DNA of 64,000 nucleotides from NCBI RefSeq assembly GCF_900109285.1, contig NZ_FNZQ01000001.1, positions 959,001 through 1,023,000 on the forward strand. Reading direction: 5' to 3'. The position numbers and the translations under genes are program-made. Shown here piece after piece: positions 41,302 through 56,215 of this stretch. This DNA is from Jannaschia helgolandensis (GTDB lineage: Bacteria > Pseudomonadota > Alphaproteobacteria > Rhodobacterales > Rhodobacteraceae). Within the stretch, counting starts at the first letter, position 1, and the number at the start of each line of letters is the position of its first letter. The notes beneath the pieces are model-generated. The model worked only from the letters and a program-made list of their open reading frames with translations. It was not told the origin of the DNA and ran no database searches.

Positions 41302-41439
41302 GGCCGCGCTGGAAAAGCAGAGTTATCCATATAATAGTATTACATTCAGTCGGTTACATGCGCGTCTAATAATTTGTCGCCCTGTCGATGGCATGGGGTA
41401 TAACAATAATGTGAATGACGTCGCGGCATGGGGTCGGAT

Positions 41440-41453
41440 TTGGACTTTTTCAA
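41440..41453 (+). promoter_or_regulatory. Possible FNR-type site upstream of uspA
   Basis: TTGG-N6-TCAA differs at one position from the FNR half-site pair TTGA-N6-TCAA. It lies about 37 bp before the UspA start codon. Usp genes are often controlled by oxygen in proteobacteria, but one near match in a T-rich stretch is weak evidence. Confidence 0.3.
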
Positions 41454-41489
41454 ACAACGCGACGCGCTGTTCTGAACGAGGAGACACTG

Positions 41490-41924: not shown

Positions 41925-41943
41925 TCCCCGAAGGAGTGACATC

Positions 41944-43488
41944 ATGAATACCCAAGTCAAGATACTGGGACTGGCGACACTTGGCTCGGCGGTCTCGGCA
42001 GTGCCGGTCATGGCGCAGAGCATCGACGAACAGGTCAATGCGGTCTTCGCATCCTCGACCGGATGGTTCGTGAACCTGATCTTTTCGTCGTTTCCCGGAA
42101 CCAGTTTCCCTTGGATCGTCGGCTGGCTGGTCGTCGCGGCGACCATCTTTACCATTTATTTCGGGTTCATTCAGTTCCGCGCTTTCGGTCATGCCATCGC
42201 ACTGGTGAAAGGCGATTATTCCGACCCCGACGACGCGGGCGAGGTCAGCCACTTCCAGGCGCTGGCGACAGCGCTGTCGGGCACGGTGGGCCTTGGCAAT
42301 ATCGCCGGTGTTGCGGTTGCCATCGGCATCGGCGGTCCGGGGGCGACCTTCTGGTTGATCCTTGCTGGGCTTCTGGGGATGGCATCGAAATTCACCGAAT
42401 GCACTCTGGGTGTGAAATACCGGAACGAATATCCGGACGGGACCGTCTCGGGCGGGCCGATGTATTATCTCACCAAGGGATTCGAGGAGCGTGGCCTGCC
42501 CATGGGCAAGATCCTTGCGGTCCTGTTCTCGATCTTCTGTATCCTCGGAGCCTTCGGCGGCGGCAACATGTTTCAGGCCAACCAGGCACATGCGCAGATC
42601 ACGAACGTGGTCGGTGATTATCCGGGCTGGATCACTGGGATCGTCTTCGCGGTGATCGTGTTTTCGGTGATCGTCGGCGGACTGAAGTCCATCGCCTCGG
42701 TCACGGAGAAGATCGTGCCGTTCATGGGCATCCTTTATGTCGTGACCGCGCTGATCATACTGTTGATGAACTATGATCGTATCGGCTGGGCCTTCGGCGA
42801 AATATTCGACGGGGCGTTCACCAATACGGGCATCGCGGGCGGTGCGGTTGGCGCGCTGATCCAGGGCTTCAAGCGGGCGGCGTTTTCCAACGAAGCAGGG
42901 GTCGGTTCGGCGGCCATCGCCCACTCGGCGGTGCGCACCAAAGAGCCGATCACCGAAGGCTTCGTCTCGCTGTTGGAGCCGCTGATCGATACGGTGATCA
43001 TCTGCACCATGACGGCGCTGGTCATTATCATCACCGGGCAATTGGTGGTCGATGCCGAAACGGGGCGTTACCTGCTGGATGAGGGTGCGAGCACCATTCA
43101 GACGGTCGACGGCAACAAGGGCGTGGCGCTGACGTCGGCGGCCTTCTCGGCATCCTTCGGAGGGTTCCAATACGTCCTGGCGGTTGCCGTGATCCTGTTC
43201 GCCTTCTCGACGATGATCAGCTGGTCCTACTATGGTCTCAAGGCCTGGACCTTCCTGTTCGGCGAAGGACAGACGACGGAGCTGGTGTTCAAGCTGCTGT
43301 TCTGCGTCTTCATCGTGATCGGCGCGGCGGCCAGTCTTGGGCCGGTGATCGACTTCTCGGATGCGGCGATCTTCTCGATGGCGATCGTGAACATCATCGG
43401 TCTCTATCTGCTGATGCCGATCGTCAAACGCGAGCTGAACAGCTACATGGCGCGCCTCGACTCGGGAGAAATCCGCAAGTTCGCCTGA
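41944..43488 (+). CDS. Sodium:alanine symporter (AGCS family)
   Basis: The 514-aa protein has about ten membrane helices. It shows the AGCS signatures: FQALATALSGTVGLGNIAGV, GGPGATFWLILAGLLGMASK, and KRAAFSNEAGVGSAAIAHSA. It imports alanine or glycine with sodium. The N-terminal MNTQVKILGLATLGSAV stretch up to AMAQS-like VMAQS looks like a signal peptide, as in several Rhodobacterales homologues. ATG 41944 has GAAGGAG upstream. Confidence 0.92.
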   Translation: MNTQVKILGLATLGSAVSAVPVMAQSIDEQVNAVFASSTGWFVNLIFSSFPGTSFPWIVGWLVVAATIFTIYFGFIQFRAFGHAIALVKGDYSDPDDAGEVSHFQALATALSGTVGLGNIAGVAVAIGIGGPGATFWLILAGLLGMASKFTECTLGVKYRNEYPDGTVSGGPMYYLTKGFEERGLPMGKILAVLFSIFCILGAFGGGNMFQANQAHAQITNVVGDYPGWITGIVFAVIVFSVIVGGLKSIASVTEKIVPFMGILYVVTALIILLMNYDRIGWAFGEIFDGAFTNTGIAGGAVGALIQGFKRAAFSNEAGVGSAAIAHSAVRTKEPITEGFVSLLEPLIDTVIICTMTALVIIITGQLVVDAETGRYLLDEGASTIQTVDGNKGVALTSAAFSASFGGFQYVLAVAVILFAFSTMISWSYYGLKAWTFLFGEGQTTELVFKLLFCVFIVIGAAASLGPVIDFSDAAIFSMAIVNIIGLYLLMPIVKRELNSYMARLDSGEIRKFA

Positions 43489-43502
43489 CGCACGGTCAGG
43501 CG
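43482..43502 (+). terminator. Hairpin at the symporter stop
   Basis: CGCCTGAC pairs perfectly with GTCAGGCG around a 5-nt loop; the first arm contains the stop codon. There is no T-run. It may end the uspA-symporter transcript. Confidence 0.5.
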
Positions 43503-43558
43503 GCACAGTGATGAAAGGCCGTCTTGCGGTGCGTCCCAGACCTTTGGAGGATACGAGA

Positions 43559-43675
43559 ATGGCGAGGCGCCGGAATTTCACAGATCAGTCTGCCAAGATG
43601 GCGTTGAAAGCGCTACGTGGTGACAAGACCGTGCCGGAGATCGCGGCGAAGCAAACCTTGGGATCGAACACCTAG
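43559..43675 (+). mobile_element. IS3-family transposase orfA, N-terminal fragment
   Basis: A 38-codon frame begins ARRRNFTDQSAKMALKALRG and continues DKTVPEIAAKQTLGSNT before a stop. This is the start of an IS3-type orfA (helix-turn-helix of the IS911/IS2 kind), cut after the first third. It has a ribosome-binding site (TTTGGAGG). No orfB follows. It marks the left edge of the accessory respiratory region. Confidence 0.8.
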
Positions 43676-43735
43676 GGTCAGGAACCTGTAGGCACAAAAT
43701 TCGACTTAAAACGTATGCTCCGGAATTACCCTGAT

Positions 43736-44059
43736 TTACCCGCAGGTCGAGGAGACAGCGATTGGGTATAAAGTCCAGAACGTCGCAATTAGAGCTGTCC
43801 AGGAGTTGGTAATACTCAACCTGCGAATGAAGCTTGAAGTTGTGTCGAAGCGTTGTGTGCGCAGTGCGAGCAACAAGAGCAGTTGGAAAAAGATGGTAGC
43901 GGACCAAGCCAGAAACAGCACCCAGCGAAAAAGGGACATGACGGGCAAGGCCACTTCGGTCCAGCCTGAGGCGCAGCCGAGGCCATGCAGCCCATAGATC
44001 GCGCTGAAACTGGCCAGCCAGACCAACAGGGGCAACAGGACGCGCAGCAACTCTTTCAC
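43736..44059 (-). CDS. Hypothetical membrane protein of the oxidase cluster, 107 aa
   Basis: The protein has about three hydrophobic helices (LLRVLLPLLVWLASFSAIYG; LPVMSLFRWVLFLAWSATIF; LIATFWTLYPIAVSS) and starts at an ATG overlapping the oxidase subunit I/III stop by 4 bp. I know no named family. Size, topology and coupling suggest a small subunit or assembly partner of the oxidase. It ends 60 bp from the IS3 fragment. Confidence 0.7.
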   Translation of the reverse strand: MKELLRVLLPLLVWLASFSAIYGLHGLGCASGWTEVALPVMSLFRWVLFLAWSATIFFQLLLLLALRTQRFDTTSSFIRRLSITNSWTALIATFWTLYPIAVSSTCG

Positions 44060-46539
44060 ATGATCATCCCCGGCAGATGGACCGCGAGCAGGATCAGCAC
44101 CGTGATCGCCGCCAGATAGTCAGTCCAGAGCGCCACCACTGCGAATGCCGCTCGACGCCGGGGTGAGGTGTAGCCACGCCGGACTTGCAGGATCAAAAAG
44201 CCTTGCATCAGCATGACGAGCAGCGCATGGGCCAGCCCGTAAGCGCCGAGGATCAGCAGGGTCGCGGCATAGGCATGGCCGTCCGGGGGCGGCAGGCGGA
44301 ACAGCATCAGGCCGAAAACCACAACCGTGGCCGCTGTTGCCAGCAGCGCCGGAACGAGGGCGGTCATAAGGGCGGCACCCGCGCGGTTGCGGCGGGCGCT
44401 CAGGTGCTGGGCTATGGCGCCTGTGAGCGCTGCACCGGTGCCGAGGCCAAGTTCGGCCCAGGAGGGAACAAACCATTGGGCAGGCGGCCAGCCCGGCGCG
44501 ACCGTCCAGAGGAAAGCATAGCCAAAGAGCAGGGAGCCGAAGAAGGTGGCATTGGCCACCAGTAGGAAGATCGAGCCCCACCAGCCCGGCGATCTGTCGC
44601 CTTCGCTCGCCAGCGGCAGTGGCGCGCCGCGCCCCGCCTCTTGTAGCCCCTGATCGGCCCGCGCGCCCAATTGCCAGACCCAGACCAACGCCAGCGCTGC
44701 AACACCCGCAAGTGCCAGCGGTGTGAGCCAGAAGAGCTTGAGCAGGATCGACAGGAAGAATCCGCCCGTCATCGCCGCCATCAGGATCGGCAGCCGGGTA
44801 TTGCCGGGGTAGATGACAAGCGCCTCGGGGCGGCCGCTGGCAGCATCGACCATCAAGGTCTCGCGCCGGGCGGCCTTGGGCGCGCCCAGATAGCCGTCGC
44901 CCATGGCCAGCCGGTTGGCCAGATCCGGGGTCTCATAGAGCGGGGTGCGGTCGCTCACCTCGGGCAGGCTGGCGAAATTATAGGATGCTGGCGGCGACAT
45001 GCCGGCCCATTCCAGCGTGCCGGCCTGCCACGGGTTGCGCCTGCTGCGCTCGGCTACGAAGGCATGGATAATGATATCGACCAGCACCAACGCGAGGCCG
45101 ATCGCCATGACGAAACTGCTGACGGAGGAGATGAAGTTGATCGTCCCCCAGCCGGACTCGGCATCATAGGTCTCAATCCTCCGGCGCTGGCCCAGCAGGC
45201 CGACCCAATGCATCGCCAGAAAGGTGCTGTGAAAGCCGAGGAAAATCAGCGCGAAGGCCAATTCGCCCAGCCGGAAAAGGCGTTTGCGCCCACTCACCAG
45301 CGGTAACCAGTAATAGATACCGGCCAGCATGGGGAAAACAAAACCACCGAACAGAACGTAGTGAAGATGGGCGGTGATGAAAGCGGTGTCATGGGCCTGC
45401 CAGTCGAAAGGCACCACGGCAACCATCACGCCGGTCAGTCCGCCGATCACAAAGGTTACGAAGAAGCCGAGGATGTGCAGCATCGGCATGTGCAACTCGG
45501 GCCGACCCTTCCACATTGTGCCGATCCAGGCAAAGATCTGCACGCCGGTCGGCACCGCCACCAGTGTCGAGGCAGCAGAGAAGAACGCCAACCCCATAAG
45601 CGGGATGCCGGTGGTGAACATGTGGTGCACCCAAAGCCCGAAGCTGAGGAACGCCAGTGCCATAATCGAGGCGACGATCCAGCCGTAGCCCAGCAGCGTG
45701 GTACGGGCCATCACCGGGATCACGGTCGAAATTACTCCGGCGGCGGGCAGGAAGATGATATAGACCTCAGGATGTCCGAAAAGCCAGAACAGGTGCTGCC
45801 AGAGAAGGCTGTCACCCCCCAAATCGGCCTGAAAAAACGGCAGGCCGAAGGCGCGTTCAACCTCCAGCAACACCGAGCCAAGGATGAGCGGCGGGAAACC
45901 TGTGAGGATCATCAGCGAGGTGACCAGCGCGTACCATGCAAAGATCGGCATCTTGTCCAGCGACATGCCCGGCGCGCGGTATTTCAGGATCGAGACGGTG
46001 AATTCCACCGCCGCGCAGATCGCCGAGATTTCGACAAAGGTGATGCCGATCAGCCAGACATCAGTGTTAATCCCTGGCGAATACAACGGCCCGGTAAGCG
46101 GCGGATACATGAACCAGCCGCCATTTGGTGCGATGCCGAACAACATCGCCACCAGCAGCAATGCACCGCCGAAAGCATAACACCAGTAGCCATAGGCGGT
46201 GAGCCGCGGAAAGGCGAGATCGCGGGTGCCCAGCATTTTCGGCAGCAAGTAGATTGCCAGCCCCTCGAAGGCGGGAATGGCAAAGAGGAACATCATGATC
46301 GTGCCATGCATCGTAAAGAACTGTGCAAAGGCACCGGCATCGACAAAGGCGGAGTCGGGCGTGGCCAGTTGGGCGCGGATCAGCATGGCCAACACGCCGC
46401 CGACAAGGAAGAAGAAGAAGGCGGTAAAGAGGAACATCCGACCAAGGTCGGAATGGTTCACGCTGCTGGTCCAGCCTTTCCAGCCCGGATCGGAAGCCCA
46501 GATCGCCTGCAGTTTACGGTGACGGCGCAGCGCGTTCAT
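44056..46539 (-). CDS. Heme-copper oxidase, fused subunits I and III
   Basis: The 827-aa protein fuses subunit I (about 1-560) to a subunit III-like part (about 600-827). Heme and CuB ligands are present: His78 (FTMHGTIMMF), His256 and Tyr260 (GHPEVY), His305-306 (VHHMF), and AHLHYV. Glu258 is kept. Channel residues differ from A-type oxidases: the K-channel Lys is Gln334 (PTGVQIF), and D-channel Asn positions are Ile96 and Thr114-Ala115 while Asp107 is kept. It is coupled to subunit II (ATGA). With the CuA-less subunit II a quinol-oxidising enzyme is likely. Confidence 0.9.
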   Translation of the reverse strand: MNALRRHRKLQAIWASDPGWKGWTSSVNHSDLGRMFLFTAFFFFLVGGVLAMLIRAQLATPDSAFVDAGAFAQFFTMHGTIMMFLFAIPAFEGLAIYLLPKMLGTRDLAFPRLTAYGYWCYAFGGALLLVAMLFGIAPNGGWFMYPPLTGPLYSPGINTDVWLIGITFVEISAICAAVEFTVSILKYRAPGMSLDKMPIFAWYALVTSLMILTGFPPLILGSVLLEVERAFGLPFFQADLGGDSLLWQHLFWLFGHPEVYIIFLPAAGVISTVIPVMARTTLLGYGWIVASIMALAFLSFGLWVHHMFTTGIPLMGLAFFSAASTLVAVPTGVQIFAWIGTMWKGRPELHMPMLHILGFFVTFVIGGLTGVMVAVVPFDWQAHDTAFITAHLHYVLFGGFVFPMLAGIYYWLPLVSGRKRLFRLGELAFALIFLGFHSTFLAMHWVGLLGQRRRIETYDAESGWGTINFISSVSSFVMAIGLALVLVDIIIHAFVAERSRRNPWQAGTLEWAGMSPPASYNFASLPEVSDRTPLYETPDLANRLAMGDGYLGAPKAARRETLMVDAASGRPEALVIYPGNTRLPILMAAMTGGFFLSILLKLFWLTPLALAGVAALALVWVWQLGARADQGLQEAGRGAPLPLASEGDRSPGWWGSIFLLVANATFFGSLLFGYAFLWTVAPGWPPAQWFVPSWAELGLGTGAALTGAIAQHLSARRNRAGAALMTALVPALLATAATVVVFGLMLFRLPPPDGHAYAATLLILGAYGLAHALLVMLMQGFLILQVRRGYTSPRRRAAFAVVALWTDYLAAITVLILLAVHLPGMIM

Positions 46540-47201
46540 GGTGTCCCCTCCGCGACAAAGGCGGCCCAGCCGGCCGGGTCATGGGCCTTGACCGAGAAGA
46601 CGTGCCGGCGATAGCCTTCGCCGTTGTACTCGGCGGTAAGGCCACGGTAGGTCCCGGGAGCATCGGCCTCGATCCGTAGCACATTCACATGGCCGGGAAT
46701 GGCGTCCAGCTTTCCAGCCAGCCGCGGCACCCAGAAACTGTGCACCACATCCCGGCTGGTGATCGCAACATCGATAGGCCGCCCGGCGGGGATGTGCAGC
46801 AGGTTCTCGGTGATATAGCCGGGGCGGTCGTCATAGGAAAAACGCCAGGCCCATTGCCGGGCCTCGGCCTGGACCCGCACGACATCCGCCGCGACGCGGG
46901 GCATCAGCCGCTCGCCGGCGACCAGACCATAGGCCAACAGGGCTGTGAGGACCGCAATGGAAAAACACAGGCCCAGACCGATGATCCAGACCTTTTCATC
47001 CCGCGCTGCGTCCCCTTCTGTCCGGCGTACCCTGAAGGCGCCGATCACCAGTGCAACCACCAGTGCAAGGATCAGCCCGGCGCCGATGAACATCACCCAC
47101 CAGAGCGTTGCGATGACGCGCGCCGCCGGGCCCGCCGGATCGACCACCGACAGATCGCCGCTGCAACCAATCAATAGGCCCAACGTTGTCCCTGCAATCA
47201 T
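46536..47201 (-). CDS. Oxidase subunit II lacking CuA ligands (CyoA-like lipoprotein)
   Basis: The 221-aa protein has a lipobox (LGLLIGC, Cys13), two membrane helices and a cupredoxin domain with HSFWVPRLAGKLDAIPGH. Where cytochrome c oxidases have the CuA motif G-Q-C-S-E-L-C-G-x-x-H, this protein has GTYRGLTAEYNGEGYRRH: both Cys and the His are missing. The same region of E. coli CyoA is also CuA-free, so a quinol oxidase is the simplest reading. ATG 47201 has no clear ribosome-binding site and lies only 21 bp from the divergent DUF2231 gene. Confidence 0.88.
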   Translation of the reverse strand: MIAGTTLGLLIGCSGDLSVVDPAGPAARVIATLWWVMFIGAGLILALVVALVIGAFRVRRTEGDAARDEKVWIIGLGLCFSIAVLTALLAYGLVAGERLMPRVAADVVRVQAEARQWAWRFSYDDRPGYITENLLHIPAGRPIDVAITSRDVVHSFWVPRLAGKLDAIPGHVNVLRIEADAPGTYRGLTAEYNGEGYRRHVFSVKAHDPAGWAAFVAEGTP

Positions 47202-47222
47202 CCCGCGAAGGAGCCTGCCCCG

Positions 47223-47738
47223 ATGAGCGAGCAGAATAGCGAAACGGCCGAGGAGCGGCTGACCGACCCGATCGCTTCCCAACCCGGCTACCAAGAGACC
47301 GAGACCCGCGTCGCGCTCGAGGGGCACCCGATCCACGCCATGAGCGTGGCCTTTCCCATCGCGCTGTCCTTCTGTCTCCTGGGTGCGGATCTGTTCTATT
47401 GGTGGACCGGCGATGCCTTCTGGGCACGCGCAGCACTCTGGGCGGCGGGTACCGCCTTCTTCCTTGGCGTGCTGGCAGGGGTTTCCGGCGCCGCCGAGCT
47501 TTTGCTGGTGACCGGCATCCGCTCTCGTGCCGCGGCATGGACACATGCGATCATCGCCGTCACCCTGCTGGCAGTGTTGGGGGCGAACTGGGGCCACAGG
47601 CTTTATGGCTACGAGGCGGGGGTGCTGCCCTATGGCATCCTCCTGTCGGGGCTCGGTGCGATGATGGTGGGGTTTACGGGTTGGCATGGGGGCAAACTGG
47701 TCTTTGACTATCGTTTGGGCACGTCGAAGGGCAACTGA
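47223..47738 (+). CDS. DUF2231 membrane protein
   Basis: The 171-aa protein has four membrane helices and the DUF2231 signature GHPIHAMSVAFPIAL near residue 35, with another conserved His in AAAWTHAIIAVTLL. The His pattern suggests heme or metal binding, but no function is established. ATG 47223 has AAGGAG upstream. It is the only plus-strand gene inside the oxidase cluster; its 3' end overlaps the convergent CopD-like gene by 31 bp. Confidence 0.82.
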   Translation: MSEQNSETAEERLTDPIASQPGYQETETRVALEGHPIHAMSVAFPIALSFCLLGADLFYWWTGDAFWARAALWAAGTAFFLGVLAGVSGAAELLLVTGIRSRAAAWTHAIIAVTLLAVLGANWGHRLYGYEAGVLPYGILLSGLGAMMVGFTGWHGGKLVFDYRLGTSKGN

Positions 47739-48220
47739 CCGCCGCGCGGCTCCCGCAGCCAGTCGGGTAGAGGGATCTCTCCAAATTCGGGCTTGCCGAG
47801 GACCAGCATGAGGATGGCGATGACGGGAATGCCCACGGCGGTGACCGGAAGGTAGGACCGGGGCGGGCGGTATTTTTCAGGCTTCTCGGCCACCTGCAAC
47901 ACCAGATGCCCGATCCAGGCATGAGCGGCGGCAAGGGCCGCGACAAAAAGCAGCTTGGCATAGAGCCAGGGGACAAAGACTTCGCGAAAGAAAATAAGCC
48001 AAGTGCCCGCCACCACCGCGACAATGGCCGCGGGGGTGGTGAGGATGGCATAGGTCATATGGGTGGCCCGGCGGATGCGGCCGTAGTCTTCCGACGTGGC
48101 GTCAGGATCATGGCGCGACAGCATCAGCGGCAGGGCCAGCAGACCGGCGCACCACAGGATGAGCGCGGCAATATGCACCCCCTTGAAGAGTGTGATCAGT
48201 ACCGGCAACCAGCCGTTCAC
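47708..48220 (-). CDS. CopD/HemJ-like membrane protein
   Basis: The 170-aa protein starts at GTG 48220, overlapping the ctaG stop (GTGA), and has about four membrane helices. Conserved His lie in LFKGVHIAALILWCAGLLAL, RRATHMTYAILTTPAAI and HAWIGHLVLQVAEK. This resembles the CopD domain and HemJ-like proteins that bind heme or copper. Coupling to ctaG suggests a part in oxidase metal loading or heme supply. Confidence 0.78.
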   Translation of the reverse strand: MNGWLPVLITLFKGVHIAALILWCAGLLALPLMLSRHDPDATSEDYGRIRRATHMTYAILTTPAAIVAVVAGTWLIFFREVFVPWLYAKLLFVAALAAAHAWIGHLVLQVAEKPEKYRPPRSYLPVTAVGIPVIAILMLVLGKPEFGEIPLPDWLREPRGGQLPFDVPKR

Positions 48221-48936
48221 TTGGTGCCGACCCGCAGCGTCGACCATCCGCGCCGGGCCACGGCCCCTGCGACGACCGCATAGGGCAGGCCCGCGGGCAC
48301 CCACATCAGGATGCCGCCAAGCTGCTGGTCCGTCAGCGGCGTAAATCCCCAGTCGAAGGGGGCTATGGCATGTGCGGCGTAAAGCGCCTCTGGCGCGAAA
48401 GTCAGTATCGCGCCCAGCATCCCCATCTGCGCAAAACCGGCGACAAGCAGCATGATGCCTTCCACCGGCGTGCGCCAGGGCGCAAGGACGGCACGCCAGA
48501 ACCACAAGAAGGACCCCAAGAGCGTGACCTGCATGAGCCAGTAAACGCCAACGTGCGAAAGCGCGAGATCATAGGCCGCTGGAAGATGCCAACCCCAGAG
48601 CACAGCCGTAGAGACCACGAAGGCCCCCATCGCCCCACCGGCCCGCCGCGCGGGCCATGCGCAGGCCAGCAGCGGCGCGGCGACGGCGACCAGTAGCACA
48701 TGATGCACCACCCGCGCCGAGAACAGGGCCGAGGAGAGCGCGCAGAGCGGTGAAACGAAAGCCAGAACCAGAACGCCCACGGCTAACATCCCCTGGTGGC
48801 TGCGGGCGCGAATGACGATCATGGAGAGCAGGAGCAATGCGGTCAGAAGGAGCGGATCGAAGTTCCAGCGAACCCAAAAATCCTCCGGCCCCGGTGCCGG
48901 TCCACAATAGGTTCGGATCCAAGAATCGCTGAGCAA
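48217..48936 (-). CDS. ctaG: Cytochrome c oxidase assembly factor CtaG (caa3-type)
   Basis: The 239-aa protein has about seven membrane helices. It contains FWVRWNFDPLLLTALLLL, VVHHVLLVAVAAPLLA with the paired His, and WHLPAAYDLAL, the signature of the caa3_CtaG family. These proteins are needed for CuB insertion or assembly of heme-copper oxidases. The start is TTG 48936 behind AAAGAAGG. It leads the minus-strand oxidase genes and is divergent from the dehydrogenase operon. Confidence 0.88.
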   Translation of the reverse strand: MLSDSWIRTYCGPAPGPEDFWVRWNFDPLLLTALLLLSMIVIRARSHQGMLAVGVLVLAFVSPLCALSSALFSARVVHHVLLVAVAAPLLACAWPARRAGGAMGAFVVSTAVLWGWHLPAAYDLALSHVGVYWLMQVTLLGSFLWFWRAVLAPWRTPVEGIMLLVAGFAQMGMLGAILTFAPEALYAAHAIAPFDWGFTPLTDQQLGGILMWVPAGLPYAVVAGAVARRGWSTLRVGTK

Positions 48937-48968
48937 GGCCTTCTTTTCCCATCCGTCGTTCCCTTACT

Positions 48969-48996
48969 GGAACGCCGCGCGCGCGTGGTTCGTTCC
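48969..48996. promoter_or_regulatory. Palindromic EcfG-type promoter pattern on both strands
   Basis: GGAAC at 48969-48973 and CGTT at 48991-48994 are separated by 17 bp, the exact pattern of promoters read by the general-stress sigma factor EcfG. Because the sequence is palindromic, the minus strand also reads GGAAC (48992-48996), 17 bp, CGTT (48971-48974). It lies 33 bp before ctaG and 142 bp before the dehydrogenase operon. An operator for an unknown dimeric regulator is the alternative. Confidence 0.55.
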
Positions 48997-49137
48997 ACAC
49001 GAAATGAGACACGGTTGGTTTTCATACCGTCGATCAATTCCGCGATCAATTTTTCTTGACCCGCAACTAAACCGATCCAGCTTTTTACCAGACGGCGCAT
49101 TGCGCGCCCGGTCACAAGCAACATTTGGAGGGGTCAC

Positions 49138-49878
49138 TTGTCTTTTCCGACGCGTCGCAAAATTCTGAAATCCCTGCTGTTGGGCGGCTCCGCCATGGCC
49201 GCCCCTTCAGCCGTGTTCGGCGCGCTTTATGGCCGGGGCGAAGGGATGCCGTGGGAGCCAATGAAAGGCCAGCCGCCCTATTACGGCACACAAGAGGACA
49301 ACTTTTTCACAGCCGAAGAACGGGCGACCACTGCGGTGATCTGCGCGCGGTTGATTCCGTCGGATGAGGACGGACCGGGCGCGACCGAGGCGGATGTCAT
49401 CTCCTTTCTTGATCGGCAGATGGCCGGATTCTATGGCCGCGGGCAGCATTGGTATATGGAGGGCCCCTTTGCTGAAGGCACGGCAACCCAAGGCTACCAG
49501 AGCGAACACCCTCCCGCGCAGCTTTACCGCTATGCGCTTGCCGAATTGGACAACTACTGCCGCGACCGGCATGACGCCGCTTTTGCCGGTTTGTCAGAGG
49601 CGCAGCAGGACGAGATCCTGAAAGGAATGGACGAAGAAGAGATCACTTTCGAAGGGGTCTCGGCCAAGGCGTTTTTCGATCTGATCCTGAAGAACACAAT
49701 CGAGGGCTATTTCGCCGATCCGATCTATGGCGGCAACCGCGACATGGTGGCTTGGCAATATGTGAGATTTCCAGGCACCCGCTATGATTACCGCGATTTC
49801 GTGAAGCACAATGGGGCGCGTATTGATCTGCCGCCGGTCAGCCTGATGGGCCGCCCCGGATGGAACAGCCTTGAGTGA
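49138..49878 (+). CDS. Gluconate 2-dehydrogenase subunit 3 family protein (small dehydrogenase subunit, Tat-exported)
   Basis: The 246-aa protein begins with a twin-arginine signal (TRRKILKSLLLGGSAMAAP). A helical domain with FFTAEERATTAVICARLIPSDEDGPGATEADV follows in segments, the typical opening of PF13618 proteins. Such small subunits carry the folded FAD subunit through the Tat system. The start is TTG 49138 behind TTTGGAGGGG. The flavoprotein and cytochrome genes follow directly. Confidence 0.9.
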   Translation: MSFPTRRKILKSLLLGGSAMAAPSAVFGALYGRGEGMPWEPMKGQPPYYGTQEDNFFTAEERATTAVICARLIPSDEDGPGATEADVISFLDRQMAGFYGRGQHWYMEGPFAEGTATQGYQSEHPPAQLYRYALAELDNYCRDRHDAAFAGLSEAQQDEILKGMDEEEITFEGVSAKAFFDLILKNTIEGYFADPIYGGNRDMVAWQYVRFPGTRYDYRDFVKHNGARIDLPPVSLMGRPGWNSLE

Positions 49879-49894
49879 AACACGAGGTGAACGC

Positions 49895-51655
49895 ATGACG
49901 AATCATCTTCCAAAGGTTGACGTGGTTCTGGTCGGTTTTGGCTGGACCGGGGCGATCTACGCCGAGAAGCTGACCGCCGCCGGGATGGAGGTGCTGGCGC
50001 TGGAACGCGGGCCGTGGCGCGATACGCCCAAAGATTTCGCGACTACATTCGCGCAGGACGAGTTGCGCTATTACTGGCGCCACGGAATGTTCCAGGAGAC
50101 ATCGCAGTCCACCGTCACGTTTCGCAACAACGGCGCGCAGACGGCTTTGCCGATGCGGCACTGGGGGTCCTTCCTGCCCGGCAATGGCGTAGGCGGATCG
50201 GGCGTGCATTGGAACGGCCAGACCTACCGCTTTCTACCTTCGGATTTCGTGGCCAAGAGCCATAACGCGGAACGCTATGGCCCGCTGCCTGAGGACATGA
50301 CGATCCAAGACTACGGCGTCACCTACGAGGAGTTGGAGCCGCATTTTGACTATTTCGAGAAAATCTGCGGCATCTGCGGCACGGCGGGCAACCTGCGCGG
50401 CGATATCCAAAAGGGCGGCAATCCTTTTGAGGGTCCGCGCAGCGACGAATACCCCAATCCGCCGATGGAGATGACTTTCTCGCAGGACCGTTTCGAGGCC
50501 GCAGCGCGAGAAATGGGTTTGAACCCCTTCCCGGTGCCCTCGGCAAATATGTCGCGCGCCTATGTCAATCCGCTTGGGCTGCAGTTGGCCCCCTGCACCT
50601 ATTGCGGCTTTTGCGAGAAATATGGCTGCGGCAATTATGCCAAATCCTCGCCGCAGACCACGATCATTCCGGTCTTGATGCAACGCCCGAATTTCACTCT
50701 GCGCACGGATTCCGAAGTGCTTTCGGTCGAGAAATCCGCCGACGGCACGCGGGCCACGGGCGTCACTTACGTGGATACCAGTGGCGAACGCTTCTTCCAG
50801 CCCGCCGAAGTGGTGGTGCTCTGTGCTTACCCTCTGGAGAACACGCGGCTGATGCTCTTGTCCGAGATCGGCACGCCCTATGATCCGCAGACCGGCGAGG
50901 GGGTAGTGGGCAAGAACTACTGCTATCAGGTAATGTCCGGCGCGACGGTTTTCTTCGACGAAGAATATACCAACGGCTTTGTCGGCGCGGGCGCGCTCGG
51001 CATGGCGGTGGATGAATATAACGGTGATAACTTCGACCATTCCGGGCTGGGCTTTATCGGGGGCGGGTATATCGCCTGCTACACTACCAACGCCCGCCCG
51101 ATCGAAAGCCATCCGGTGCCAGACGGCGTGCCGGGGTGGGGGAGCGAATGGAAACAGTCGGTCCGGGCAAATTTCCTCAAGACCACCACGGTTGGCGTGC
51201 ACGGCGCTTCGATGGCGCATCGCAGCAATTACCTTGACCTGGATCCGACGTATACAGACCGACACGGTCGGCCGCTCTTGCGCATGACCTATGATTTCAC
51301 TCTCAACGACCGTCGCCTGACTGCTCATATCACCCCCGTTGCCGAAGAGATTGCCCGGGGCATGGGGGGACGCGAGGTCAATGTGGCCGAGCGCAAGGGG
51401 TCCTATGACTCGATGCCGTACCAGACAACCCATAACACCGGCGGCACGATCATGGGGAACGACCCGCAGACAAGTGTCTGCAACCGCTATTGCCAAAGCT
51501 GGGATCTGCATAATCTCTTCGTAGCCGGGGCAGGGCTTTTTCCTCAAAACGCGGGCTACAACCCGACCGGAACCGTTGCGGCGCTGGCCTATTGGACGGT
51601 CGCGGCGATTATTGATCAATATATGGCCGATCCCGGCTCGCTGGTGCAGGCGTGA
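49895..51655 (+). CDS. FAD-dependent GMC dehydrogenase, catalytic subunit
   Basis: The 586-aa GMC-family flavoprotein has an FAD Rossmann loop VVLVGFGWTGAIYAEKL and the active-site pattern HNTGGTIMGNDPQ...AGYNPTGT near the C-terminus. A Cys cluster CTYCGFCEKYGC near residue 237 matches the iron-sulfur-binding region of FAD-glucose and related dehydrogenases. No signal peptide is present, consistent with piggyback Tat export. The substrate is a sugar, sugar acid or polyol, not fixed by sequence. I use ATG 49895 (GAGGTGAACGC upstream). It overlaps the cytochrome gene by GTGA. Confidence 0.9.
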   Translation: MTNHLPKVDVVLVGFGWTGAIYAEKLTAAGMEVLALERGPWRDTPKDFATTFAQDELRYYWRHGMFQETSQSTVTFRNNGAQTALPMRHWGSFLPGNGVGGSGVHWNGQTYRFLPSDFVAKSHNAERYGPLPEDMTIQDYGVTYEELEPHFDYFEKICGICGTAGNLRGDIQKGGNPFEGPRSDEYPNPPMEMTFSQDRFEAAAREMGLNPFPVPSANMSRAYVNPLGLQLAPCTYCGFCEKYGCGNYAKSSPQTTIIPVLMQRPNFTLRTDSEVLSVEKSADGTRATGVTYVDTSGERFFQPAEVVVLCAYPLENTRLMLLSEIGTPYDPQTGEGVVGKNYCYQVMSGATVFFDEEYTNGFVGAGALGMAVDEYNGDNFDHSGLGFIGGGYIACYTTNARPIESHPVPDGVPGWGSEWKQSVRANFLKTTTVGVHGASMAHRSNYLDLDPTYTDRHGRPLLRMTYDFTLNDRRLTAHITPVAEEIARGMGGREVNVAERKGSYDSMPYQTTHNTGGTIMGNDPQTSVCNRYCQSWDLHNLFVAGAGLFPQNAGYNPTGTVAALAYWTVAAIIDQYMADPGSLVQA

Positions 51656-52881
51656 GACGGCTGGCCCTGATAACCGCCTTCTGCGGCGCGAGCTTTGCCC
51701 TTGGTGAAGGACAGGCGCAGGAGCTCTCCTCTTCCGAAGTTGAGCGCGGCCGCTATCTGACGCAGGCCGGCGATTGCAAAGCCTGCCACACTGATATTGA
51801 GAACGACGGCATTCCCTTCGCCGGGGGGCGGGCGCTGATGACGCCCTTTGGCACGATTTATTCGTCCAACCTCACCCCCGATGACGAGACTGGACTGGGC
51901 CGCTGGACGCGCGAAGATTTCTACAATGCGCTGAACGAGGGTATCGATGACGAGGGCCGCCACCTCTACCCGGCGATGCCCTATCCCTATTTCACCCTGA
52001 TGACGCGGCAGCAGACCGATGCGATCTTTGCCTATCTACAGTCGCTCGAGCCGGTGCAAGTGGAGGAACAGGAGAACGATCTGCCGTTCCCCCTCAACAT
52101 CCGCATGTCAGTGAGCGGCTGGAAGCTGTTGTTCTTCGATGACGAGGAATTCGTGATCAATCCGGATCGCTCTGAGGAATGGAACCGTGGCCGTTTTCTC
52201 GTGGACGGGCCTTTGCACTGCGGCGCCTGCCACTCGGGCAAGAACCTGCTCGGCGCCAGCAAGGATGACGAGTACCTGCGCGGGGGAACGTTACAGAACT
52301 GGTTCGCGCCTAATATCCGCGGCGGTGAGAATGGCGGTATTGCTCATTGGGACGAGGACGATATTTTCGAATTTCTGAAATACGGCCGGGCTGAGCATAC
52401 CGCGCCAATGCAGCGCATGGGCGAGGTCGTTGCGATTTCCACCCAGTTCCTGCAAGAGGAGGACCTGCGGGCCGTCGCCACCTATCTCAAGAGCCTCGAC
52501 GATACGTCGCGCGAGCCGGAAGAAGCGCCCGAAACAGCTCGGCTCGAGGCGGGCGAGGGGATTTACTTCGACAACTGCGCCGCCTGCCATGCGACCGATG
52601 CTTCGGGCGTGCCCTATTTCTTCGCACCACTCGGCACGTCGAACAAGCTGCACGCCAAGGATCCGTCGACCGTGATCCGCATCATCCTCGGCGGCGCCCG
52701 CGCCCAGCCGACCGAGACGGTCCCCAGCATGCTGGCAATGCCACCCTTCGCTTGGAAACTCACCGATACGCAGATCGCTGACCTGCTGACCTTCCTGCGC
52801 AATACCGGAGACCGCCGGAGCGGCGCGGTTTCGGCGGAAGCGGTGGCCGAGATGCGCGAATATCTTGCCGAAGAATATTGA
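51652..52881 (+). CDS. Tri-heme cytochrome c subunit of the GMC dehydrogenase
   Basis: The 409-aa protein has a signal peptide and three heme c sites: CKACH (about residue 43), CGACH (about 186) and CAACH (about 307). Regions after each site contain Met ligands, for example MLAMPPF. This is the membrane-side electron-transfer subunit of gluconate, fructose and FAD-glucose dehydrogenases, which pass electrons to ubiquinone. No membrane helix is visible at the C-terminus, so binding to the membrane is probably peripheral. Start GTG 51652 overlaps the flavoprotein stop. Confidence 0.92.
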   Translation: MRRLALITAFCGASFALGEGQAQELSSSEVERGRYLTQAGDCKACHTDIENDGIPFAGGRALMTPFGTIYSSNLTPDDETGLGRWTREDFYNALNEGIDDEGRHLYPAMPYPYFTLMTRQQTDAIFAYLQSLEPVQVEEQENDLPFPLNIRMSVSGWKLLFFDDEEFVINPDRSEEWNRGRFLVDGPLHCGACHSGKNLLGASKDDEYLRGGTLQNWFAPNIRGGENGGIAHWDEDDIFEFLKYGRAEHTAPMQRMGEVVAISTQFLQEEDLRAVATYLKSLDDTSREPEEAPETARLEAGEGIYFDNCAACHATDASGVPYFFAPLGTSNKLHAKDPSTVIRIILGGARAQPTETVPSMLAMPPFAWKLTDTQIADLLTFLRNTGDRRSGAVSAEAVAEMREYLAEEY

Positions 52882-52891
52882 AGGTAATCCG

Positions 52892-53269
52892 ATGAGCCAA
52901 ACCCACTCTTTCAATGCCGCGACGATAGGTCTGATACTGGGTTTGTGCCTCACGAAGACGGCGGGGGCGGAACCGCTTTATCTTGGCGAGGAAGAATACA
53001 GCACTGACGACCGCAGCGTCATGGCTGCTATCATAGAGCATTGCGTTGGGTTACAGGCGGACGCCGAGAAAGCAGAAGCTACGCGTGTTTTTGGGGTGGA
53101 AAGAGACGAGGAAGACAGGCGCGAAACGGACATTGGGCCTGCGTCATCTTCAGTTGAGAAACTTGGGATTTCAGTCGACCAACTTGCTTCCGGAGATGAG
53201 GACGGGGAGGCGCCGGACTTCTCACAGGTGACTGCGGAACAATGCAGCGCAGCAGGCATCATCTATTAG
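52892..53269 (+). CDS. Hypothetical exported protein, 125 aa
   Basis: The protein has a signal peptide (ATIGLILGLCLTKTAGA) and a short acidic mature part with two Cys (EHCVGLQ and EQCSAAG) that could form a disulfide. It starts at ATG 52892 behind GAAGG, 10 bp after the tri-heme cytochrome, so it is the last gene of the dehydrogenase operon. I know no family. A periplasmic accessory factor is possible. Confidence 0.65.
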   Translation: MSQTHSFNAATIGLILGLCLTKTAGAEPLYLGEEEYSTDDRSVMAAIIEHCVGLQADAEKAEATRVFGVERDEEDRRETDIGPASSSVEKLGISVDQLASGDEDGEAPDFSQVTAEQCSAAGIIY

Positions 53270-53369
53270 AGGAAGTCGCCCACTGTGCGGATTCCATAAG
53301 GCTTTCCCTGCCCGTTTGATCATGGTTTCTCCTCAGGACGTGAAACGTCTTGCTCATGATAGGCTTCCT

Positions 53370-53540
53370 TTTGGCGATGCGGGTCGTCTCCCCGATGCGT
53401 CGCGGCGATCCGCCGCAGCATTGCCAACGCGCACGGGCTTTGGGCGTTTTAATGGCCCCCGGGACGATGGCGTTGACGCGTATTTTCTCACAGGCCAGCT
53501 CCTGCGCCATCGATTGCATCAATTGCTTAACGTCCCCCCT
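53370..53540 (-). pseudogene. Short-chain dehydrogenase remnant
   Basis: A minus-strand stretch reads DVKQLMQSMAQELACEKIRV then NAIVPGAIKTPKAR, the region after the SDR catalytic Tyr-x3-Lys ending in the conserved N-A-I-x-P-G. RIGETTRIAKRKPIM follows, a decayed version of the next SDR element. The Rossmann half and most of the C-terminus are missing. It resembles glucose 1-dehydrogenase-type SDRs and was probably cut by the neighbouring insertion sequence. Confidence 0.7.
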
Positions 53541-53559
53541 TGGCTGTCGCCTATGCCCT

Positions 53560-53885
53560 GATGCCTGGAAACATCGTCGGCATCTCGATGGCGCTACTCT
53601 TGCTGGCGGATGTCGCCCCGGCGGCTGCTTGCGGACACGGCCTGCGACGCGGACAACCTGCGTAACTGGTTGTGCAACCGACAGATCAAGGCAGTTACCC
53701 CTTCCACCGCCAGCCGTCGAACCCCCTATCCGCTGGATCGTGAAGCCCACCGTCGGCGCAACGTCATCGAAGGCATGTTCTGCAAACTCAGGAACTGGCG
53801 ACGGATCGCCAGCAGATACGACCGGTTGGCGGCCAGATACCTCGCCGCTCTCGCCCTCGTATTCATTGTAATCGCGTGGACTTAA
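53560..53885 (+). mobile_element. IS5-family transposase, C-terminal remnant
   Basis: The last part of a DDE transposase is readable: LLADTACDADNLRNWL, then RRNVIEGMFCKLRNWRRIA and SRYDRLAARYLAALALV before the stop. The final catalytic Glu (VIEGMF) is present. Upstream codons continue in another frame (LLLLADV), showing a frameshift, and the N-terminal two thirds are absent. It marks the right edge of the accessory region. Confidence 0.8.
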
Positions 53886-53895
53886 CACCTGACTA

Positions 53896-53924
53896 CGCCC
53901 GTCCTGACTCAGGGCGGCTTTTTT
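53896..53924 (+). terminator. Terminator after the IS remnant
   Basis: A GC-rich stem (GCCC ... GGGC, with CCTGA/TCAGG inside) is followed by GGCTTTTTT on the plus strand. It ends about 9 bp before the convergent nrdJ stop and separates the accessory region from nrdJ. Confidence 0.55.
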
Positions 53925-53932
53925 CTATGCGA

Positions 53933-56215
53933 TCAACTGCATTTCGAAAATCCGCAGTTGGCGCAGGTCGCGCATCCTTCAGCCATGTGAACGGCGAAGC
54001 TGCCGCAATTCGGGCAAGCGGGTCCGGGGGGCGCGGGCGCGGTATCGCGATGGGCAGGGTCGACCTTGAGGCCCAAGCCTTCTCCGGCCAGAAATCCGGT
54101 GGCGATCATATGCCGTTCGATCACGCCGCCGATGGCCGCAAGGATCGAGGGCACGTATTTGCCCTGCACCCAGGCCCCGCCGCGCGGATCGAAGACGGCC
54201 TTCAGCTCCTCGACCACGAAAGACACATCGCCGCCGCGCCGGAACACCGCCGAAATCATCCGGGTCAGCGCGACGGTCCAGGCGAAATGCTCCATGTTCT
54301 TGGAGTTCACGAAGATCTCGAAAGGGCGTTTCTGACCGTCAATGTCGATATCGTTGATCGTGATATAGAGCGCATGTTCCGACGCGGGCCATTTGATCTT
54401 GTAGGTCTCGCCGGTCAGCCGTTGAGGCCGGTCCAGCGGCGCGAACAGGTGGACGATCTTGGGGGTTTCCGCGATGGGCGCTGCGGGCATCTCTGTCGAA
54501 AGGACCGATCCGGTGATCGCGTTCGGTCTATAGGTCGTGCAACCCTTGCAGCCAGTCGCCCATGCTTGAAGATAGACGTCCTTGAAAGCATCGAACGTTA
54601 TGTCGGCGGGCACGTTGATCGTCTTGGAAATGCTACTGTCGGTCCATAGCTGCGCGGCGGCCTGCATGGCGATGTGATCGCCGGGCGTCAGGTCCGCGAC
54701 GCTGACCATATGGTCGGGCAGGGGTGTATCCCCATGCAGTTCGCGCCACTTGGCGACGGCGAAATCCGCGACCGTCTCTTCGGTGCGGGTGCCGTCGGGT
54801 TGCAGCACCTTGCGGGTGTATTCCTGCGCGAAGATCGGCTCGATTCCCGAGGACACGTTCCCCGCCAGCAGGCTGATCGTGCCGGTCGGTGCGATGGAGG
54901 TCAGCAGCGCGTTCCGCAGGCCATGTTCGGCGATCGCGTCGCGCGTATCCGTATCGAGCCGTTGGACCATGGGGGCCGCAAGGATCGCTTCGCGGTCATA
55001 AAGCGGGAAGGTGCCCTTTTCCGCCGCCAGTTCGGCCGAGGTCAGATAGGCCCTGTTCGCAATCGTGCTCAGCCAATTGGCCGTGGCGTCAACCGCTTCG
55101 GGCGCGCCATAGCGCAGCCCGCACATCGCCAGGGCATCGGCCAGCCCGGTCACGCCCAGCCCTATGCGGCGCTTGGCGCGGGCTTCGTCCGCCTGCGCGG
55201 GCAGGGGAAAGCGGCTGGCGTCGACGACATTGTCCATCATGCGAATGGCCGTGGCCGTCAGGTCGGCCAGTGCATCGAGGTTCACACTGGCCCGGTCGGT
55301 GAACGGATTGTCCACAAGTTGCGCCAGATTGACCGACCCCAGAAGGCAGGCACCATAGGGCGGCAAGGGCTGCTCGCCGCAGGGGTTGGTCGCGGCAATG
55401 GTTTCTACGTAGGACAGGTTATTGGCGGCGTTGATGCGGTCGATGAAGATCACGCCCGGTTCGGCATAGTCATACGTCGCCTGCATGATCGCGTTCCATA
55501 AATCGCGGGCACGCAGGGTGCGATAGGTCACGCCGCCGAACACCAGCGGCCAGTCGCCGTCGGCATCCACCGCTTCCATGAACGGGTCGGTCACCAGCAC
55601 CGACAGGTTGAACATCCGCAACCGGGTCGGGTCGGATTTCGCCGCCACGAAATCCAGCACGTCGGGATGATCGCAGCGCAGGGTCGCCATCATCGCGCCG
55701 CGCCGCGACCCGGCGGACATGATCGTGCGGCACATGGCGTCCCACACGTCCATGAACGACAGCGGGCCGGAGGCATCGGCGGCCACGCCGGTCACGCTCG
55801 CGCCCCGGGGCCGGATGGTCGAGAAGTCATAGCCGATGCCGCCCCCCTGTTGCAGGGTCAGGGCCGCTTCGCGCAGGGCGGAGAAGATACCCGACATACT
55901 GTCTTCGATGGTGCCCATGACGAAGCAGTTGAACAGCGTGACGCTGCGGTCGGTGCCGGCACCCGCGATGATGCGACCGGCGGGCAGGAAGCGAAAATCC
56001 TGCAGGGCGGACCGAAACCTGGGCGTCCAGTGCGCCGGATCTGCCTCGGGTGCGGCCAGCGCGGCTGCGATGCGGTCCCATGTCGCGTCGATATCGGCGT
56101 CCAATGGCGTGCCGTCGGCGGCCTTGAGCCGGTATTTCATGTCCCAGATCTGCCGCGCGATGGGGGCGGCGAAGGACGAGGACGAATCGGTCGCGGTATC
56201 GGGCATGGCGGTCAC
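53933..56215 (-). CDS. nrdJ: Adenosylcobalamin-dependent ribonucleotide reductase (class II)
   Basis: The 760-aa enzyme makes deoxyribonucleotides without oxygen, using a B12 radical. Active-site elements are TLFNCFVMG, NPCGEQPLPPYGACLLGSVN and APTGTISLLAGN. The C-terminus carries the redox Cys pairs (CPNCG, CATCANCG, SKCS). The start is GTG 56215 or ATG 56206; neither has a strong ribosome-binding site. No B12 riboswitch is seen in the 73-bp gap upstream. CobU and a CobC-like enzyme elsewhere in the window belong to cofactor assembly. Confidence 0.95.
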   Translation of the reverse strand: MTAMPDTATDSSSSFAAPIARQIWDMKYRLKAADGTPLDADIDATWDRIAAALAAPEADPAHWTPRFRSALQDFRFLPAGRIIAGAGTDRSVTLFNCFVMGTIEDSMSGIFSALREAALTLQQGGGIGYDFSTIRPRGASVTGVAADASGPLSFMDVWDAMCRTIMSAGSRRGAMMATLRCDHPDVLDFVAAKSDPTRLRMFNLSVLVTDPFMEAVDADGDWPLVFGGVTYRTLRARDLWNAIMQATYDYAEPGVIFIDRINAANNLSYVETIAATNPCGEQPLPPYGACLLGSVNLAQLVDNPFTDRASVNLDALADLTATAIRMMDNVVDASRFPLPAQADEARAKRRIGLGVTGLADALAMCGLRYGAPEAVDATANWLSTIANRAYLTSAELAAEKGTFPLYDREAILAAPMVQRLDTDTRDAIAEHGLRNALLTSIAPTGTISLLAGNVSSGIEPIFAQEYTRKVLQPDGTRTEETVADFAVAKWRELHGDTPLPDHMVSVADLTPGDHIAMQAAAQLWTDSSISKTINVPADITFDAFKDVYLQAWATGCKGCTTYRPNAITGSVLSTEMPAAPIAETPKIVHLFAPLDRPQRLTGETYKIKWPASEHALYITINDIDIDGQKRPFEIFVNSKNMEHFAWTVALTRMISAVFRRGGDVSFVVEELKAVFDPRGGAWVQGKYVPSILAAIGGVIERHMIATGFLAGEGLGLKVDPAHRDTAPAPPGPACPNCGSFAVHMAEGCATCANCGFSKCS

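Follow-up and report, generated by a model that had tools for sequence, protein, structure and literature searches.

Oxidases of the coxMNOP type are present in Bradyrhizobium. As far as the accessible part of PMC4013037 describes it, the COX operon type a encodes A-family heme-copper oxidases in which COX1 and COX3 are fused, and its type a-II carries PQQ dehydrogenases; coxMNOP-type oxidases are named in the available text of PMC5492768. The locus compared here with these systems also shares the absence of CuA in subunit II, and a presumed quinol donor, with cytochrome bo3 (CyoABCD; 1fft), and it has in common with fructose dehydrogenase and FAD-glucose dehydrogenase (7w2j, 8hdd) a GMC flavoprotein, a tri-heme cytochrome and a Gluconate_2-dh3 small subunit.

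In the window, i.e., the whole 64,000-nt stretch of Jannaschia helgolandensis DNA that was analysed, a ten-gene set at 43736-53269 places a GMC dehydrogenase triad divergently from a CuA-less oxidase cluster. It is interpreted here, with a probability of roughly 0.5, as a mobile respiratory module in which a periplasmic GMC dehydrogenase would be joined to a terminal oxidase of its own, the two communicating via the quinone pool. The open frames are intact for all genes named by an earlier, sequence-only reading of the stretch, and the features are as follows:

43559..43675, plus strand: N-terminal remnant of an IS3-family transposase OrfA, left edge (74% identity over 37 aa with annotated IS3 transposases)
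43736..44059, minus strand: small membrane protein after subunit I-III (hydrophobic segments; recurs after CoxI-III in related loci)
44056..46539, minus strand: heme-copper oxidase subunit I fused to COX3, 827 aa (COX1 E 5e-140; CtaD_CoxA above cut-off; COX3 by profile)
46536..47201, minus strand: oxidase subunit II with a lipobox-like Cys and CuA ligands lost (COX2 E 9e-13; alignments)
47223..47738, plus strand: DUF2231 membrane protein, antisense within the oxidase cluster (PF09990 E 3.9e-33)
47708..48223, minus strand: UPF0093/HemJ-like membrane protein, CopD family by Sulfitobacter annotation (PF03653 E 9e-15)
48217..48936, minus strand: Caa3_CtaG copper-insertion factor (PF09678 E 1.6e-27), its start set by the annotated Sulfitobacter length
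48937..49137, no strand: divergent intergenic region separating both halves
49138..49878, plus strand: GMC dehydrogenase small subunit, Gluconate_2-dh3, with a Tat-type signal (PF13618 E 3.2e-34; N-terminus TRRKILK, with RR)
49871..51655, plus strand: GMC flavoprotein with Cys242/245/248/253 and His521/Asn564 (Pfam; family conservation)
51652..52881, plus strand: tri-heme cytochrome c subunit without a C-terminal anchor (8gy2_B E 8e-84; three CxxCH)
52892..53269, plus strand: small exported protein, last gene of the set (equivalent position in the Sulfitobacter W027 plasmid)
53610..53885, plus strand: C-terminal remnant (DDE) of an IS5-family transposase, right edge (PF13586 E 3.6e-9)

Neither the small membrane protein nor the small exported protein matched a family in Pfam or NCBIfam. 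The sequence-only reading had recognised the GMC triad, which is confirmed by the RR signal, Pfam and the three CxxCH motifs, and a CuA-less oxidase with CtaG, DUF2231 and a small membrane protein, which is borne out by family matches and the subunit II alignment. The protein that it called CopD-like is present, but its family match is UPF0093/HemJ-like. The two halves were also said to share a promoter; a scan of the divergent gap found no sigma-70 consensus, hence what they share amounts to intergenic space only.

Compared with the COX1-3 fusion oxidases (COX operon type a in the accessible part of PMC4013037, coxMNOP and the Thermus caa3 oxidase, 2yev), the oxidase is alike in its fused subunits I and III, a nearby Caa3_CtaG gene, its kinship on the tree and the K-channel Gln of most CuA-containing fused relatives. 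It differs from them in lacking the CuA ligands and the heme c domain, and its module has a standing CopD/HemJ-like protein, an antisense DUF2231 protein and the small membrane protein. The COX3 domain at the C-terminus of subunit I was found by a profile match to 2yev I+III (residues 564-787, E 1.2e-7) and to COX3 chains; Pfam by itself reported no COX3 in the fused protein. In the subunit II alignment, the CuA positions read T-E-N-Y-H instead of C-E-C-H-M, i.e., the first His alone is retained, the two Cys, the other His and the Met being gone (subunit II of L107 was pieced together from BLAST matches). The CuA-containing relatives that share the gene order retain every CuA ligand, which makes the change of donor traceable and testable residue by residue. 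In a quick tree of 118 rows, which omits loci with fewer than 480 aligned subunit I residues and five loci judged to be repeats of the same contigs (L089, L211, L214, L215 and L222), the CuA-less subunit I proteins form a clade of 33 nested among CuA-containing fused oxidases (SH-aLRT 100). CuA was lost within the fused COX1-3 lineage of CuA-containing relatives, outside bo3.

Identity with bo3 itself was considered and rejected. The oxidase scores 433.6 of 1020 bits against CyoB and 70 of 266 bits against CyoA, compared with 686.8 for CtaD_CoxA, over a cut-off of 670.75, and its loss of CuA is separate on the tree. In addition, Arg71, Asp75 and His98, which we take to be the quinol-site residues of bo3 subunit I, are absent from the aligned window subunit I. 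Among the 11 fused rows displayed, L092 is the single one with any of these residues, namely a third-position His, whereas they are present in L075 and, with Glu for Asp, in the bo3-like L188. The earlier suggestion that a CuA-less oxidase accepts quinol stands in part: because CuA is lost from subunit II, ubiquinol is the most likely donor, but the enzyme is not a bo3 and its site would be unlike that of bo3. Apart from the tri-heme gene of the GMC kind, no cytochrome c gene recurs beside the CuA-less modules (32 loci), which likewise points to a donor of general use, e.g. quinol. Two further positions of subunit I are distinctive. Gln334 occupies the position of the K-channel Lys (VPTGVK motif), and Gln is found there in 116 of 123 determined rows, a count that includes the same five duplicate loci and takes in most of the CuA-containing fused relatives examined; so large an oxidase family raises the question of how far that Lys is needed. 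Arg452 stands where the PRR motif has its conserved Pro, residue 452 being Arg in 33/33 members of the CuA-less clade and Pro in 79/79 CuA-containing oxidases.

On the dehydrogenase side, the small Tat subunit, the GMC subunit and the tri-heme cytochrome lie together in one operon, as in the fructose and FAD-glucose dehydrogenase type. In contrast to the 7w2j and 8hdd types, the flavoprotein is remote (the nearest solved relative is fructose dehydrogenase, best E 1e-27) and has four conserved Cys. Cys242, Cys248 and Cys253, together with His521 and Asn564, are found in 44 of 44 family members and Cys245 in 43 of 44; the four Cys are the predicted ligands of an Fe-S cluster, the type of which is not readable from sequence. 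A PDB sequence search with the small subunit gave no match. The tri-heme subunit also resembles that of the alcohol dehydrogenase 8gy2, but the match stops at residue 434 of 478 (425 of 482 for 8hdd), and the C-terminal extension of the quinone-reducing homologues, presumably a membrane anchor, is missing. Moreover, a hydrophobic C-terminal tail was found in 0 of 28 tri-heme cytochromes examined, one for each of 28 GMC loci, after omission of L079 and L195 (cytochrome cut) and of loci without a tri-heme match. In view of both observations, the statement of the sequence-only reading that such dehydrogenases reduce quinone is not supported.

In the quinone-linked module proposed here, the Tat-exported flavoprotein and its small subunit would, judging from their family, oxidise a sugar- or alcohol-like substrate. 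By analogy with the homologues, electrons would pass from FAD through the Cys-ligated Fe-S cluster to the tri-heme cytochrome, and this anchorless subunit would dock at the membrane, both halves being most likely joined through the quinone pool. The CuA-less COX1-3 fusion would then most likely be reduced by ubiquinol at a site distinct from the bo3 one, and O2 would be reduced at the retained heme/CuB site.

The island is supported as an acquired accessory region, as had been proposed from the IS fragments on both edges, both of which were recovered: its site is empty in relatives, it is present elsewhere and it is bordered by IS traces. Positions 43922-53269 align in one piece with a Sulfitobacter plasmid at 84.9% DNA identity. 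All ten genes are found in order on one Sulfitobacter plasmid, and two further plasmids have the nine main genes; Sulfitobacter dubius DSM 109990 and Sulfitobacter sp. DSM 110093 are strains with this divergent nine-gene order. One Sulfitobacter MAG locus holds the dehydrogenase-to-oxidase part, cut inside the cytochrome gene. Recurrence of this kind exceeds chance. In 4 of the 10 genus relatives examined, the matches to the flanking LysR and ribonucleotide reductase genes lie 43-1146 bp apart and the island is absent. Hence the region is not universally core, and a homologous oxidase cluster does adjoin a GMC triad in Sulfitobacter. Half of the 20 matches listed for the IS3 remnant are also Sulfitobacter. 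The LysR gene at 40408 was rejected as part of the island because it neighbours the reductase gene in those 4 relatives. The island does not stand out in base composition (G+C 0.615 compared with 0.620 and 0.638 in the flanks), and searches for flanking repeats found no convincing inverted repeat and, as the best direct repeat, an unconvincing 29 nt at 79% identity.

Like COX operon type a-II, as described in the accessible part of PMC4013037, the locus places dehydrogenase and oxidase genes together; here, however, the enzyme is a flavin (GMC) rather than a PQQ enzyme, four oxidase types are concerned and the arrangement is divergent. Among the matches listed in the open full-text literature and a few subscription papers, mostly as titles or abstract starts, neither the CuA-less clade nor GMC-oxidase pairings are described, and the titles listed for the K-channel Gln and for coxMNOP were for the most part unrelated. 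Genome searches gave 36 GMC loci, 8 of which adjoin an oxidase (about 0.9 expected), but the claim of a strong linkage is weakened because 7 of these 8 belong to a single clade; they represent only 2 lineages, and the excess loses its significance when lineages are counted instead (p 0.16). Neighbours may be missed in some of the 36 loci, whose contigs are short (7.9 kb for L177, about 12 kb for L181 and L195) or, as for L187, end 0.7 kb from the start of the locus. Four of six plasmids examined among the 30 plasmid GMC matches listed also carry an adjoining oxidase, in a sample biased by being picked partly for presence in both match lists. On the GMC tree, parsimony places four gains of oxidase adjacency, each with a different type: CuA-less fused, CuA fused, CuA plus heme c, and bo3-like, the last lying divergent from a tri-heme triad with CyoB and CyoA as best matches, both below NCBI cut-offs. 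The presence of this dehydrogenase family beside at least four kinds of oxidase hints that a substrate-to-oxygen chain was repeatedly assembled, and makes substrate oxidation coupled to a dedicated oxidase the likely selected function. The family therefore offers a natural set for asking whether such chains form private modules.

The CuA-less modules are not general companions of GMC, a possibility that was rejected. At the genome level, 2 of 15 genomes other than the window's own hold both (0.8 expected, p 0.17, not significant), and in none of 7 non-own genomes with an oxidase module and GMC does a window-like module adjoin GMC. GMC likewise lies beside none of the 23 family oxidase loci from other genomes and beside 2 of the 80 loci of a larger set. 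Of the co-occurrence that the sequence-only reading named as a check, the dehydrogenase does recur next to oxidases, but at the genome level significance is reached by CuA-containing modules alone. Its private electron chain is not supported: 28 of 33 CuA-less clade rows show no GMC in the surrounding sequence examined, and outside the module no gene family recurs among the neighbours, a scattered ABC-type ATPase and a few small clusters aside. The pairing of a CuA-less fused oxidase with GMC is that of a single window/Sulfitobacter lineage.

These counts would also be expected if a general quinol oxidase and an independent dehydrogenase, both accessory, had come to lie side by side by chance on plasmids of one Sulfitobacter-like lineage and were transferred together without being coupled, as would the 28 of 36 GMC loci without an oxidase. 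We consider such co-transfer possible but rather unlikely, since the divergent order persists across the window, three plasmids and a MAG locus although protein identity of subunit I falls to 81%, four oxidase types are paired on the GMC tree, and CuA-containing fused modules co-occur with GMC in 5 of 8 genomes (0.4 expected, p 1e-5). It is improbable, in turn, that the tri-heme subunit, being soluble, binds to the oxidase and passes electrons straight to the low-spin heme with neither CuA nor quinone involved, just as the dehydrogenase of relatives would feed CuA or the heme c domain of the neighbouring oxidase. The anchorless cytochromes are consistent with this route, as are the extra Arg452 beside the conserved RR motif and seven relatives in which GMC lies upstream of a fused oxidase that contains CuA; in both loci examined (L069 and L192), a di-heme cytochrome gene separates the two. 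However, the GMC triad is mostly absent beside CuA-less oxidases and the tri-heme gene is found in only 4 of 32 CuA-less loci (that of the window, those of two plasmids, and L080, where GMC is lacking), so that a different donor must serve the majority of these oxidases. To our knowledge, no A-family oxidase accepts electrons directly from a cytochrome without CuA, which also counts against this route. The broader version, in which the GMC family repeatedly captured available oxidases and fed each by its own soluble multi-heme cytochrome, here into the low-spin heme at a surface remodelled around Arg452 and bypassing quinone, bc1 and CuA, appears quite improbable.

The loss of both CuA and the K-channel Lys could, finally, mean that the protein is no longer an oxidase, its decayed subunit II and altered K channel reflecting another role or a gene being lost. 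This is very improbable, given that the ligand motifs for heme and CuB, the HPEVY motif and the reading frames are intact, that the 33 clade members, though divergent, retain all six genes or nearly all, and that the Gln is common to CuA-containing fused relatives. A deletion of coxMNOP, whose enzyme may or may not have the Gln, was made in Pseudomonas KF707 according to the available part of PMC5492768, and is also at odds with such decay.

The subunit I-COX3 fusion, the small exported protein at 52892-53269 and the antisense orientation of the DUF2231 gene had gone unnoticed in the sequence-only reading. Among 80 loci, the DUF2231 gene lies on the same strand in none and antisense directly upstream of subunit II in 45.

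Ten open genes at window positions 43736-53269 make up the island and include the dehydrogenase and CuA-less oxidase genes that the sequence-only reading had named, with the CuA ligands of subunit II lost. The features of the island and its edges are as follows.

Left of the set: IS3 OrfA remnant
Leftward genes: small membrane protein, subunit I-III fusion (827 aa), subunit II, UPF0093/HemJ-like protein, Caa3_CtaG
47223-47738, antisense, between the genes for subunit II and the HemJ-like protein: DUF2231 protein
Rightward genes: Gluconate_2-dh3 small subunit with RR signal, GMC flavoprotein, tri-heme cytochrome, small exported protein
Right of the set: SDR remnant and IS5 C-terminus

We give about an even chance to the reading of this set as a mobile module that couples a periplasmic dehydrogenase to a terminal oxidase probably fed by quinol. 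Gene content, the loss of CuA, the relatives, the acquisition and the repeated pairings are direct results; the class of substrate, the electron route and the coupling are inferences, and the private chain proposed earlier may exist. The COX3 part of subunit I drew no Pfam report and was recovered by a profile built on six relatives, which matches Thermus 2yev I+III as well as COX3 chains. DUF2231 is a conserved opposed gene within an oxidase cluster: of the 80 best-listed related loci, 45 have it antisense and directly upstream of subunit II, these 45 spanning alpha-, beta- and gammaproteobacteria, and none of the 80 has it on the subunit II strand.

That the island was acquired and is edged by IS fragments on both sides, as had been proposed, is borne out by the two IS remnants, by plasmid relatives and by an empty site in related strains. 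Window positions 43922-53269 form a single alignment, with 84.9% DNA identity, to a plasmid of Sulfitobacter sp. W027; it ends with the stop codon of the final island gene, after which the plasmid has an IS6 transposase. Nine of the ten genes are found in unchanged order on two more Sulfitobacter plasmids. A Sulfitobacter MAG contig (L079) carries the oxidase module and both dehydrogenase subunits and breaks off inside the cytochrome gene, of which it has the start. A subunit II of more than 60% identity occurs in 4 of 20 sampled genus genomes, the window's own counted. In base composition the island does not stand out.

The neighbourhood of the ribonucleotide reductase gene was fetched from 10 genus relatives. 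In 4 of them the LysR gene (window 40408-41301) adjoins the reductase gene (window 53933-56215) without the island, the two matches lying 43 to 1146 bp apart; LysR lies 11-14 kb away in 3 and is absent from the fetched stretch in 3. In the window the two are separated by 12.6 kb, universal-stress and alanine-symporter genes included. Because the site (window 41301-53933) is empty in some relatives and 11-14 kb long in others, it may be an insertion hotspot. Two genomes with an empty site (G011 and G017) carry the CuA-less oxidase on other contigs.

Window subunit II has T-E-N-Y-H at the positions of C-E-C-H-M in CuA proteins and retains the first His. CuA-less forms account for 16 of the best 80 loci listed in a subunit II profile search and for 15 of 23 non-own loci in a 394-genome family sample. 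A quick maximum-likelihood tree was built from 118 sequences of subunit I. In it the fused oxidases without CuA make up a single 33-member clade (SH-aLRT 100), nested within CuA-containing fused oxidases of identical gene order; long-branch warnings concern the outgroup and basal rows, the CuA-less clade not being among them. Gln237, Phe422 and Arg452 are each specific to this clade (33/33), position 452 being Pro in 79/79 CuA-containing sequences. A Comamonas MAG locus (L093) is CuA-less and falls outside the clade, which is best read as a second, separate CuA loss. Its subunit II has S-E-S-Y-M, and the locus retains the Pro and Asp altered in the main clade.

The window oxidase shares its CuA loss with bo3, but its place in the tree among fused oxidases and the absence of the bo3 quinol-site residues from window subunit I show that its descent is not that of a bo3. 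Subunit I retains the heme and CuB motifs and HPEVY. Of the 123 rows in which the residue at the K-channel Lys position was determined, both CuA-containing and CuA-less, 116 have Gln, 4 have Lys (L074, L075, L148 and L188), 2 have Met and 1 has Ser; PMC8239418 discusses the loss of the K channel from A-family oxidases on an archaeal tree.

Among cytochrome genes, only the tri-heme one recurs across the 32 CuA-less loci, in 4 of them (the window, L159 and L160 with GMC, L080 without); this would point to a general donor for the CuA-less oxidase, quinol being the strongest candidate. An ABC-type ATPase family occurs at scattered positions in 10 of the 32, and a few small gene clusters recur in 4-9, several being reading frames that overlap the module.

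The tri-heme subunit is clearly homologous to the cytochrome subunits found in alcohol, fructose and glucose dehydrogenases of the quinone type (E 8e-84 to 8e-66). However, it stops short of the C-terminal 44-57 residues present in 8gy2 and 8hdd, presumably their membrane anchor, and a hydrophobic C-terminal tail is lacking in 28/28 family tri-heme cytochromes examined. The earlier statement that dehydrogenases of this kind reduce quinone therefore cannot be transferred from the homologues. The 44 GMC sequences share four Cys and the His521/Asn564 pair, apart from one X at Cys245. Family membership would predict at most the class of substrate, not an individual compound.

Genome searches yielded 36 GMC loci besides that of the window (14 class, 20 family, 2 genus), each taken with flanks of about 10 kb as far as the contig extended. 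A heme-copper oxidase lies within the stretch in 8, against 0.9 expected at the density that subunit I genes have in the genome of the window (p 2e-6). Seven of the 8 form a single clade; if the 8 are counted as two lineages, significance is lost (p 0.16). With the window lineage included, as well as two rhizobia (L098, L162) that came from targeted searching, oxidase adjacency has to change four times on a 44-row GMC tree. The four groups differ in their oxidase, which is CuA-less fused in one, CuA fused in another, CuA plus heme c fused in a third and, in the fourth, a bo3-like CyoAB divergent from a tri-heme triad. The pairings also fall at separate places on the subunit I tree.

From the oxidase side, GMC lies in the fetched stretch of 2 of the best 80 loci listed (L079, L098) and of 0/23 non-own family loci. 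Among 394 family genomes, 7 other than the window's contain both GMC and a window-like subunit II, against 1.2 expected (p 4e-5), and the two are neighbours in 0/7; in genome G450 a distance of 32 kb on one contig separates them. Split by type, this genome-level co-occurrence is significant for CuA-containing modules (5/8, p 1e-5) and not for CuA-less ones (2/15, p 0.17); these p-values take no account of relatedness or lifestyle. From these co-occurrence and adjacency counts, the GMC family is probably tied to fused oxidases, chiefly CuA-containing ones, and its tie to the CuA-less type is restricted to the window/Sulfitobacter lineage.

PMC4013037 describes the COX operon type a, with its COX1-3 fusion, as well as PQQ-type dehydrogenases inside oxidase operons, and a coxMNOP deletion strain is reported in PMC5492768. 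In seven loci (L069, L189-L193, L196), the GMC small and large subunits are followed on the same strand by CuA subunit II, fused subunit I-III and CtaG; the heme c domain of subunit II was read in L069. A di-heme cytochrome, weakly similar to the periplasmic shuttle PdsA, lies between dehydrogenase and oxidase in L069 and L192. In locus L188 (4336-12300), a GMC tri-heme triad is divergent from a bo3-like quinol oxidase (CyoB, CyoA, COX3-like), which parallels the layout of the window independently. A Cu/Zn superoxide dismutase gene separates triad and oxidase in Rhizobium sp. Q54 (L162, 13022-13537), and a superoxide dismutase family gene adjoins the triad in Roseinatronobacter. The family-less small exported protein that ends the set (window 52892-53269) is retained in Sulfitobacter W027, and Peteryoungia has an unnamed gene at the matching place.
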